Positions 526-3,413 of a stretch of 60,304 bases of DNA are shown here, one piece after another. Within the stretch, counting starts at the first letter, position 1, and every line of letters begins with the position of its first letter. Made by a program: the position numbers and the translations under genes. The DNA is from Glaciecola sp. (lineage in GTDB: Bacteria > Pseudomonadota > Gammaproteobacteria > Enterobacterales > Alteromonadaceae). Below the pieces are notes generated by a model, which searched no databases, was not told where the DNA came from, and saw only the letters and a program-made list of their open reading frames with translations. The stretch spans positions 1 through 60,304 of the forward strand of contig JAQWNF010000032.1 of NCBI GenBank assembly GCA_029246415.1, read 5' to 3'.

Positions 526-739
526 CTAAAATCGGCCTGATTCTGTACAGTTTGAGTACTTTGGTAATTTTGCCATATTCCGGTATCTGACCGTAAAGTC
601 AAAACTACCTTGTTGCAGCATTGGCAGTACAATATTACCATCGTCAACTTCTTGAATATTAGAAAAACCTAAGTATTTTAATAATACGACGCATGGTAGA
701 AAAATCGTCTACTACTAAAATTTTTATGTCTGTGTCCAT
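526..739 (-). pseudogene. cheY: Decayed and truncated cheY
   Basis: Read from ATG 739 the minus strand gives MDTDIKILVVDDFSTMRRII, the CheY N-terminus with the acidic pair Asp-Asp and the FSTMRRII helix, then a stop at 661-659. In another frame, from 672, it continues as LGFSNIQEVDDGNIVLPMLQ and then QQGSFDF, which is CheY sequence. So a few codons are lost and the frame is shifted near 672. After that the match fades: the stretch holding the phosphoacceptor Asp (TDWNMPG) is replaced by VRYRNMA, and the reading stops at 528-526, just before cheW. The second half of cheY is absent. This lies where cheY sits in the ancestral order, directly after fliA. Confidence 0.88.
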
Positions 740-767: not shown

Positions 768-1499
768 TTACGCTTCTTCGGCATGCCAAGAGCGTAATTT
801 TGATTTTAATTTTAACATGGCTTGACTGTGGATTTGACTCACACGAGACTCGCTTACGCTAAGCACTTCACCAATTTCTCGTAAATTAAGATCTTCATCA
901 TAATATAACGATAACACTATCGCTTCACGTTGAGGCAAAGTCGTAATCGCTTTGGCTAACGCTTTTTGAAACGAACCTTGGACAAGCTCATCATAGGGCG
1001 TATCGGCAGATTTGTTTTTATCTGTTGTAATAACATCTTCAGCGACACCCAAATCTTCAATACCAACTAATTTCCCAGCATTAACCTCATTTATCATTTG
1101 ATGATATTGTTTGATATCTACCCCTAACTGTTCCGCCACATCAGTATCATGAGCATCTGCGCCGGTTTCTTTTTCCACTATCGAAATGGCTTCAGTGATT
1201 GCTCTTGAGTTTTTGTGTACTGAACGCGGAGTCCAATCCCCTTTGCGGATATCATCAAGCATGGAACCGCGTATACGGATCCCTGCAAAGGTTTCAAAAC
1301 TCGCACCTTTACTACCGTCAAAATTTTTGGCTGCCTCTAAAAGCCCGATCATTCCGGCTTGAATCAAATCATCGACTAAGACACTTACCGGTAACCTCAC
1401 CATCAAGTGATGTGCTATACGCTTAACTAATGAAGCATGCTTTTCTACTAATGCGGTGATATCTAACTGTTGACTATATGCTTTTGCTTTTGTGTTCAC
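768..1499 (-). CDS. fliA: Flagellar sigma factor FliA (sigma-28)
   Basis: The 243-residue product is a full-length FliA. Region 2 includes HHLMVRLPVSVLVDDLIQAG and FETFAGIRIRGSMLDDIR, followed by DWTPRSVHK. Region 4 carries the helix-turn-helix LREIGEVLSVSESRVSQIHS near residues 205-228. It directs RNA polymerase to late flagellar, chemotaxis and motor promoters and is held inactive by FlgM. The start is GTG at 1499-1497, overlapping the end of the flhG-derived frame upstream, as in intact clusters. The gene shows no frameshift although both neighbours are broken. A plausible target promoter remains in front of flgM at 2816-2842. Confidence 0.95.
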   Translation of the reverse strand: MNTKAKAYSQQLDITALVEKHASLVKRIAHHLMVRLPVSVLVDDLIQAGMIGLLEAAKNFDGSKGASFETFAGIRIRGSMLDDIRKGDWTPRSVHKNSRAITEAISIVEKETGADAHDTDVAEQLGVDIKQYHQMINEVNAGKLVGIEDLGVAEDVITTDKNKSADTPYDELVQGSFQKALAKAITTLPQREAIVLSLYYDEDLNLREIGEVLSVSESRVSQIHSQAMLKLKSKLRSWHAEEA

Positions 1500-2173
1500 A
1501 GTACATCTCCTACTGCTTTTTTGGCTACTAACTGCTCAATGAAAAATTCTAGATGACCACCAGGTTGCATGAGAATAGGCCAATCCATCTCTTGTTGCGC
1601 AATATTATTTACAGCTGTTGAAGCTGGATATGCATCCCTTAGGGATGTAGGTTCATCACAAACTTCGCTTTCAAGTCGTTCTTCAGGAATTGCACCACAA
1701 TTAACCGGAATAAAAGACTCCTCTTTACGTAGCAACATATATTGAATATTACGTGCAATGATTTCATTTCCTGTTCCGGACTCGCTTAATATAAATATGT
1801 TAGCCTCTTTGAGAGAAACTTGTTCAATGAGCTTACATACATGAGGAATTTGCTGACTTTCGCACAATAGCCAACGAAATAAGATTGGTTTATTGGATTT
1901 TTTAAGCTTTTTGGAGTTGTTAATTAAAAAGCTGCGACACTTTTCAATACTGGCGGTCAATGCAGAATAAGTAAAGAACCCATCAATCTCAGCACCGATT
2001 TTCAGTAACTCAATGGCTTTTGAAGATTCCACTAAGTGACAGTTTTCACCGAGAAAATTAACAATAGTTGACAAGTTTTGGCGACGACTGATGTCATCAC
2101 TAATTAATAATGAATTTCTCATAGCTTCCATGCTTTTAGTTTGATCCGAAGATCCTTTATAATCGCTACCCAA
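1496..2173 (-). pseudogene. flrA'-'flhG fusion: N-terminus of flagellar master regulator joined to C-terminus of FlhG
   Basis: The 225-codon frame is a chimera. Residues about 18-171 match FlrA/FleQ: a degenerate receiver domain (LLISDDISRRQNLSTIVNF) and the start of the sigma-54 AAA+ domain (LIEQVSLKEANIFIL, ARNIQY, FIPVNCGAIP, LESE). The Walker A motif reads SESGTGNE instead of GESGTGKE, so the nucleotide-binding Lys is gone. After LESEV (around 1660) the sequence switches to the C-terminal tail of the MinD-like ATPase FlhG (AYPASTAVNN, then DWPILMQPGGHLEFFIEQLV). The 3' end overlaps fliA exactly as flhG does. One deletion joining the two genes explains this and removes everything normally between them. 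The product cannot be a working activator or ATPase. Confidence 0.85.
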
Positions 2174-2370
2174 TTACATAAAACAGCTGTTGATATTAAA
2201 GGCTCTGATTTAACAGCAAGACAATCCTATATCTTAGTAAAAGAGCAACACTTGTTTGCCAACTATAACAATATTTTGACGTTTGTCATCATTTTGGCGC
2301 TAAGACAAATGCGACAATTCGTGTAGGAGATGTACCATTAAATACGCAAAGCATTGATTTTAAATGATTA
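2141..2370 (+). other. Decayed coding scrap of unknown origin
   Basis: The plus strand reads VDIKGSDLTARQSYILVKEQ and on to YNNIL, then loses frame. A second frame continues DVCHHFGAKTNATIRVGDVP and ends LNTQSIDFK before a stop near 2366. Together they look like the C-terminus of a former protein with a frameshift around 2275. I could not assign the family. flgA normally precedes flgM on this strand, but the residues do not resemble the FlgA C-terminus that I know. Treat it as a relic. Confidence 0.35.
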
Positions 2371-2815: not shown

Positions 2816-2842
2816 TAAAGTAATTGGCAAGATGACCGATTA
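2816..2842 (+). promoter_or_regulatory. Sigma-28 (FliA) promoter of flgM
   Basis: TAAAGTAA at 2816-2823, an 11-bp spacer, then ACCGATTA at 2835-2842. The FliA consensus is TAAAGTTT-N11-GCCGATAA, so each half matches six of eight positions with the exact spacing. It ends 33 bp before the flgM start. A sigma-28 promoter in front of flgM is the known arrangement in polar flagellates, where FliA drives its own anti-sigma factor. Confidence 0.75.
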
Positions 2843-3233: not shown

Positions 3234-3413
3234 CAATTGGTGCAGCAAAAACAACACCTCAGAGGTGCAGGTAACAATATTGTATTAAGCCAACCAACTG
3301 AGACCTATTTTAATATTGTGTATATCCAACCCGATGTCAGTGTTATTCAAACTGAAGATACATTTTTATCTCACAATATTCAAACCAATGATTGGGTCAT
3401 TGTAGTCGAATAA
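3234..3413 (+). other. Decayed coding scrap after flgM, possibly the end of a flagellar gene
   Basis: An open frame without a start codon reads about 59 residues, including NNIVLSQPTETYFNIVYIQP and ending NIQTNDWVIVVE before a stop at 3411-3413. The ending resembles the beta-rich C-terminal domain of flagellar T-ring proteins such as FlgT, which lie beyond flgM in related clusters. This is only a guess from residue pattern and position. No ribosome site or start is present, so it is a relic. Confidence 0.3.

Follow-up and report, generated by a model that had tools for sequence, protein, structure and literature searches.

The locus described here raises the question of why a reading frame in which the head of flrA runs into the tail of flhG stays open directly in front of an intact fliA, in a cold-water Glaciecola without flhA and with little left of its flagellar cluster. 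Its interest lies in what the deletions spared. The window, i.e., the whole stretch of 60,304 nt that was analysed, belongs to genome G000 of a genus sample of ten Glaciecola genomes (G000-G009).

A deletion scar in front of an intact fliA

An earlier note had described an open frame of 225 codons that switches near 1660 from FlrA to FlhG. We found this frame on the minus strand and dissected it against FlrA (481 aa) and FlhG (288 aa) of the flagellated relative G004, both checked by Pfam. Residues 15-65 correspond to FlrA 1-51 (38/51 identical), residues 68-171 to FlrA 99-202 (70/104), residues 171-182 to FlhG 158-169 (11/12) and residues 177-225 to FlhG 237-288 (39/49); tblastn against G004 gave the same mosaic. 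The alignment thus bears out the switch near 1660. Within the frame itself, Pfam detected FleQ (E 2.6e-8, residues 22-54) and Sigma54_activat (E 5.2e-13, residues 104-171). As judged from the alignment, the fused frame is a deletion scar left by at least three in-frame deletions: 45 codons are missing inside FlrA at about 1974, FlrA is fused to FlhG at about 1662, and about 71 codons are missing inside FlhG at about 1630. The earlier reading as the scar of a large flagellar-cluster deletion holds in this respect, but not with a single junction. The gap of over 20 kb that it gave for the intact genes amounts in G001 to 19.8 kb between flrA and flhG, or 22.1 kb from the start of flrA to the end of flhG.

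The fused product lacks 45 receiver-like codons, most of the AAA+ domain and the HTH of the FlrA (FleQ) family, and its Walker A lysine is changed to asparagine (GTGNE vs GTGKE in G004 FlrA), as had been noticed before. FlhG 158-169 and about 241-288 are all that remains of the MinD-type ATPase domain of FlhG. Judged by its predicted sequence, the product can be neither FlrA nor FlhG. A start at TTG 2173 appears doubtful, because the ATG further upstream, which serves as the start in G001, G002 and G005, meets a TAA at once in the window; ATG 2131 is the likelier start, since it matches the FlrA start of G004.

Table 1 Features of the fliA locus in the window and the basis of their assignment.
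Feature	Position	Strand	Basis or remark
cheW, intact; sole CheW-domain protein found in the genome	24..515	-	Pfam and genome search
cheY relic, frameshifted	574..739	-	Comparison with relatives
fliA, sigma-28, intact, 243 aa	768..1499	-	NF005413, 311.7 bits (cut-off 201)
Fused relic frame flrA'-'flhG	1496..2173	-	225 codons counted from TTG 2173; ATG 2131 the likelier start
FlhG about 241-288 block	1496..1627	-	Last codons hold the fliA ribosome-binding site and the GTGA overlap
FlhG 158-169 block	1628..1663	-	11/12 identical to G004 FlhG
FlrA 99-202 block, changed Walker A (GTGNE) at about 1777	1661..1972	-	Alignment to G004 FlrA
FlrA 1-53 block (G004 numbering)	1973..2131	-	Alignment to G004 FlrA
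Sigma-70-like promoter of flrA, ATGACA-16-TATAGT	2262..2289	-	Region alike in G002 and G005; before flrA in G004
Sigma-28-like site, 33 nt before flgM	2816..2842	+	Shuffling and matrix scoring
flgM, anti-sigma-28, intact, 102 aa	2876..3184	+	TIGR03824, 61.9 bits (cut-off 40.75)
flgT C-terminus relic	3237..3407	+	tblastn E 1.4e-8 to the G004 gene (FlgT by Pfam)

Apart from the fusion, the window retains the flgT relic, flgM, fliA, the frameshifted cheY relic and cheW, and flagellin, hook and motor genes are missing from its flagellar locus. The intact fliA directly behind the scar and the intact flgM had been given no weight in the earlier note. FliA matches Sigma70_r2 and Sigma70_r4 above their cut-offs, with r3 just under its own (22.4 vs 25.3). 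A genome-wide search for FlhA, which that note had proposed as a check, found none in G000. CheA was likewise not found in the genome, since its single CheW-domain protein is CheW itself. Eight chemoreceptor matches (on C25, C6, C38, C29 and C31) are left in G000 without a CheA-type protein, one of them carrying a stop.

The flagellar supercluster collapsed to different degrees across Glaciecola

In the flagellated G001 and G004, a single flagellar and chemotaxis supercluster lies between purL and metA. Its order is smrA, flgT, flgP-like, flgN, flgM, flgA, cheV, cheR, flgB onwards, flagellins, fliD, flrABC, fliE to flhG, fliA, cheY to cheW, DUF2802 and metA. Pfam checks cover the names FlrA, FlgT, FlgA, FlgN, one flagellin and DUF2802, and FlhG only as a MinD/ParA-type ATPase; most other genes are what we take them to be from sequence and gene order. 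The stretch from purL to metA spans 59.0 kb in the flagellated G001 vs 4.5 kb in the sister G005.

A scan of genome contigs for the fused protein kept 80 loci, of which 78 were remoter sigma-54-activator genes and were not used. The other two, the contigs that share the arrangement of the window, are Glaciecola MAGs, which places the window in this genus. Open fused frames of 277 codons in G002 (FlrA 1-52, FlrA 99-150, FlhG 147-288) and 248 codons in G005 (FlrA 1-83, FlrA 350-436, FlhG 218-288) have junctions that differ from those of the window; the 45-codon deletion inside FlrA is common to G000 and G002. In G006 and G008, smrA, fliA, cheW and metA follow one another, and in G003, G007 and G009 fliA lies between rplS and metA; the fused frame is absent from both arrangements. 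The fliA of the latter three species stands directly behind rplS with a gap of about 370 nt (L052 9553-11070, L054, L056), and is possibly read from the ribosomal-protein operon. G003 and G009 also keep a full-length FlrA (472 and 479 aa) beside smrA, away from fliA (L053 8870-10288, L055 8762-10201), and in G003 its domains are complete. The flgM gene is lost in G002. In G005 (L046 3329-3646), its normal C-terminal end is gone and it runs into sequence like the flgT end.

A tree of rpoD and a transporter gene groups G003, G007 and G009 with the flagellated G001, and places G000, G002, G005, G006 and G008 together (support 0.76), apart from the flagellated G004. If flagella were only ever lost, this topology implies at least two losses. 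The locus thus shows a flagellar regulon in the middle of its dismantling, with sister species at different stages.

FliA is kept without a flagellum

FliA scored above its cut-off in all ten Glaciecola genomes and FlhA in two (G001 and G004). In the eight genomes without FlhA, fliA is intact throughout, on at least two lineages of the tree; the completeness of three of these eight is below 90% (G006 82, G007 89, G008 83). FlgM is present in two of the eight. We then considered a family sample of 196 genomes with a completeness of at least 90%, using a FliA match threshold of E 1e-50. FlhA was present in 180 of them, all of which reached this FliA threshold. Among the 16 FlhA-less genomes, FliA was found in 5/5 Glaciecola, and at this threshold none of the 11 genomes outside Glaciecola had a match (Fisher p 2.3e-4, unadjusted and with 7 of the 11 from one genus, hence not independent).

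Glaciecola is a free-living marine genus, in contrast to Legionella oakridgensis. With FlhA absent and FliA present, G000 fits the flagella-less, FliA-keeping type of the latter, for which an excerpt of PMC5655016 describes a missing flagellar regulon with homologues of FliA and FlgM left. Thus, both are flagella-less bacteria that keep FliA, and the species of the window also keeps FlgM. Unlike in L. oakridgensis, the collapse can be followed through several Glaciecola species that have reached different points of it; the deletion leader, the promoter region and the candidate targets can be seen, and FlgM is lost in most FlhA-less species. FliA kept without flagella is therefore already known, and Glaciecola adds a history that is better preserved and targets that can be tested. 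Elsewhere, FliA may often be kept in one form or another, as FliA hits in 41% of the non-motile genomes of a published survey suggest (PMC12199754). Among the literature matches listed, we found nothing on this retention in Glaciecola.

Chlamydia trachomatis also has no flagella. It is, unlike Glaciecola, an obligate intracellular pathogen, and its sigma-28, named in a passage of PMC10597470, resembles the role proposed below in serving other genes without flagella.

A proposed role of the scar as a leader that brings fliA under the flrA promoter

Where the cluster is intact, transcription of fliA starts from later promoters that depend on FlrA. The deletion puts fliA of the window about 0.76 kb behind the sigma-70-like promoter of flrA, although a scan for such promoters performed overall at chance (17 found vs 16.0 expected). 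Because the region of the flrA promoter has survived, it probably drives fliA. The stop of the fused frame and the start of fliA overlap by four bases, GTGA, in G000, G002 and G005 as well as in G001 and G004, and the fliA ribosome-binding site lies inside the last codons of the frame, as in the two flagellated species. By this overlap, the frame is a leader of the translationally coupled type, with fliA having a ribosome-binding site of its own too.

We propose that serial deletions would have left the two ends of the stretch from flrA to flhG in place, on one side the promoter and head of flrA and on the other the flhG tail with the ribosome-binding site and the overlapping fliA start. What would remain for the dead fused protein is a role as transcribed and translated leader into fliA from the flrA promoter; by deletion, fliA would have captured that promoter. 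FliA would have been kept as in this genus it would also serve genes outside the flagellum, here the chemoreceptors, flgM and a small operon, and in five sister species a syp-like polysaccharide operon. With somewhat better than even confidence, we favour this reading of a frame that is dead as a protein and kept as a leader of fliA, whose product serves non-flagellar genes. On this view, fliA survived probably because it now serves other genes. The locus would then be a natural case of a dead gene whose frame may stay open for no other purpose than to lead ribosomes and transcription on into the gene behind it. It also suggests that non-motility genes can be reason enough to retain a late-class flagellar sigma factor after the flagellar checkpoint is gone.

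Open frames, unconstrained content and the competing explanations

The strongest competitor takes the fusion, fliA and flgM alike for remnants of a loss too recent for their frames to have closed; we consider it a serious explanation but a rather unlikely one. The leader content agrees with it. Over the shared leader codons, G000 and G002 differ by 9.5 synonymous and 25.5 non-synonymous changes (dN/dS 0.71, p 0.22 vs 1), and the part of the earlier claim that the protein content is near neutral stands. Pooled values against G005 are 0.27-0.29, which includes the time of functional FlrA. Relatives with such a fused gene, which that note had considered, exist in G002 and G005 with other junctions, and by the G000-G002 ratio their content looks unconstrained. 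For fliA, the same pair shows 20 synonymous and 22 non-synonymous changes (dN/dS 0.30, below 1 with p 1.9e-4); the difference in this proportion between leader and fliA is not significant (p 0.10) and counts against a leader kept for fliA. So do the fliA ratios of 0.30-0.40 among G000, G002 and G005: metA, metH, hisG, rpoD and the transporter gene reach about 0-0.06 between G002 and G005, and by this comparison fliA is under relaxed constraint vs housekeeping genes of similar age, as expected of leftovers. Chemoreceptors without CheA, and the loss (G002) or alteration (G005) of flgM, weigh on the same side. Furthermore, the leader is missing from G003, G006, G007, G008 and G009 and is thus dispensable.

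Against mere leftovers stand the intact fliA in all eight FlhA-less Glaciecola on at least two lineages, with no FliA match at E 1e-50 in the 11 other FlhA-less family genomes, the promoter-like sites that are kept (see below), and the state of the neighbours: frameshifts or stops have already broken the relics of cheY (G000 and G002) and flgA (G005). In three species, the leaders contain six distinct junctions, and all six are in frame. Taken as independent, the odds are 1 in 729 for all six and 1 in 27 for the three outside the original finding, the latter not being overwhelming. In simulations, each leader had a 17-25% chance of staying stop-free at 0.05 changes per site, falling to 4-7% at 0.10; open leaders under neutrality at low divergence are thus not rare, and both results count against the leader reading. 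Taken together, the frame evidence favours selection for an open path into fliA without proving it. A relic without selection, as first described, is accordingly an incomplete picture of a frame that is open in three species over six different junctions while neighbouring relics are broken.

Two further points concern the history of fliA. Its relaxed constraint comes mainly from 13 replaced sites on the branch of G002 and 11 on that of G005; the branch of G000 has only two, which, like the ratio below 1 between G000 and G002, counts for the leader reading. For hisG, dS is 0.61-0.66 between G000 and the other two and 0.055 between G002 and G005, whereas in fliA and most of cheW G000 is about as close to G002 and G005 as those two are to each other. 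This likeness despite the distant hisG of G000 points to apparent recombination of the fliA-cheW block between species, which counts against that reading. Over positions 1-1500 of the window compared with L045 and L046, fliA and cheW are far more alike among the three genomes than hisG or rpoD.

It is very improbable that the fused protein is itself functional, e.g., as a small regulator made of an FlrA head and an FlhG tail. The functions of FlhG and FlrA are connected in polar flagellates, and the open frames of 225, 277 and 248 codons keep the same two ends; however, their middles are wholly different between species, the dN/dS of 0.71 and the lost catalytic motif speak against a working protein, and the frame is absent from five other flagella-less species. 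An assembly artefact joining two distant places is hardly credible even though the contig begins inside this locus, because two other Glaciecola assemblies have the same order with the flrA head joined in frame to the flhG tail before fliA, identity between G000 and G002 is 92-97% over a stretch that begins upstream of the leader and takes in most of the shared FlrA part, and the genome has no FlhA.

Candidate sigma-28 targets in the window's species

Sigma-28 promoters are of the TAAA-N15-NCCGATA type, and the sites of this type reported here are promoter-like candidates that FliA may recognise. A fixed pattern, TAAA-N15-GCCGATA, had 66 matches in the ten Glaciecola genomes vs 16 for the reversed control (8 vs 2 in G000), but missed the flagellar clusters of G001 and G004 altogether. 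We dropped it as evidence, as in 8 of 15 opened stretches the match lies inside a reading frame (in L204 for the longest reading only), and it served only as a lead to the two operons described below. In G000, G002 and G005 (L191, L204, L205), a non-coding match precedes the gene of a Sel1-repeat protein by 23-44 nt, and another lies between two genes in G003 (L198), in sequence common to G007 and G009.

A later matrix was built from six hand-picked sites upstream of flagellin, flgM and cheR-like genes (five from G001, one from G004); its rates are optimistic owing to this hand-picking, and the background of 755,766 positions includes several true sites. As controls, purL, smrA, fliA of G003, G006 and G008, the leader, and cheW of G006 and G008 were without a site (expected number at least 0.32 per 150 bp), while cheW of G000 had a weak one (0.034) just 13 nt before its start. 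The sigma-28-like site of flgM is present in G000, G004 and G005.

Six of the eight chemoreceptor genes of G000 were scored, leaving aside C31 (which has the stop) and C25:101120. By shuffling, four had a site at p 0.015 or less (L194 0.40, L207 0.84), and by the matrix five had an expected number of 0.052 or less (L207 0.67). Thus, the two tests agree on a site for four genes, the matrix alone gives one for a fifth, and the sixth has none. To our knowledge, chemoreceptors without CheA have no known output, which counts against FliA being kept on their behalf.

The first operon, a small one beside hisG, encodes an 83-aa, a 75-aa and a membrane protein (L217 748-1749, G000:C29; L218, L219, L220, L221). 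Pfam has no family for the two short proteins, and the third is PgaD-like below cut-off. Its sigma-28-like site has a rate of 6.6e-6 in G000, G002, G004 and G005 and is weaker in G001 (6.9e-5); the matrix found none in G009, and in G003 the first gene is broken. This promoter-like site is therefore common to flagellated and flagella-less species. Such named promoters and operons allow us to ask what sigma-28 does with nothing left to assemble.

A syp-like polysaccharide operon in sister species

The second operon is not in the window's species. In G003, G006, G007, G008 and G009, i.e., all flagella-less species that have this STAS gene, a sigma-28-like site lies exactly 29 nt before the STAS start (5/5; rates 5.3e-6 to 2.8e-4), with surrounding sequence that differs between the two species groups. 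The STAS protein had no match in G000, G002, G004 and G005, and a weak one only in G001 (21% identity). In G003, G006 and G008, the STAS gene is followed in turn by OmpA, SLBB/Poly_export, AAA tyrosine-kinase-like and HATPase_c_2-receiver-SpoIIE genes (L239 6278-11796, L240 4985-10568, L241 5108-10687); gene order was seen in these three and domains were tested in G003 and G006. These three sister species thus have the order of a syp-type locus, i.e., STAS, OmpA, export, tyrosine-kinase-like and kinase-receiver-phosphatase.

The syp genes of Vibrio follow the order sypA-E. Like the syp locus of Vibrio fischeri, the Glaciecola operons encode a STAS protein, and their HATPase-receiver-SpoIIE protein has the architecture reported for V. 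fischeri SypE, with an N-terminal serine kinase, a receiver and a C-terminal PP2C domain (PMC3610818). Transcription of V. fischeri syp is ascribed to the sigma-54-dependent SypG in an excerpt of PMC4517449; the Glaciecola operons, by contrast, are preceded by a sigma-28-like site, and the 300 nt upstream contain no GG-N10-GC in any of the five species. We tentatively suggest, as a possibility short of an even chance, that the sigma factor outlived the flagellum at least twice through a surface or biofilm role, that FliA would read the syp-type operon in two groups, and that each lineage re-sited fliA, behind the flrA promoter with an in-frame leader, behind rplS or beside smrA. A link between FliA and polysaccharide is not claimed here as being without precedent, as a paper on an E. 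coli exopolysaccharide synthase contains the term FliA-dependent once (PMC8669469). The AAA_31 match of the tyrosine-kinase-like protein is below its cut-off in G003 and just above it in G006. A GG-N10-GC occurs 366 nt upstream, inside the preceding gene, in G003 and G007.
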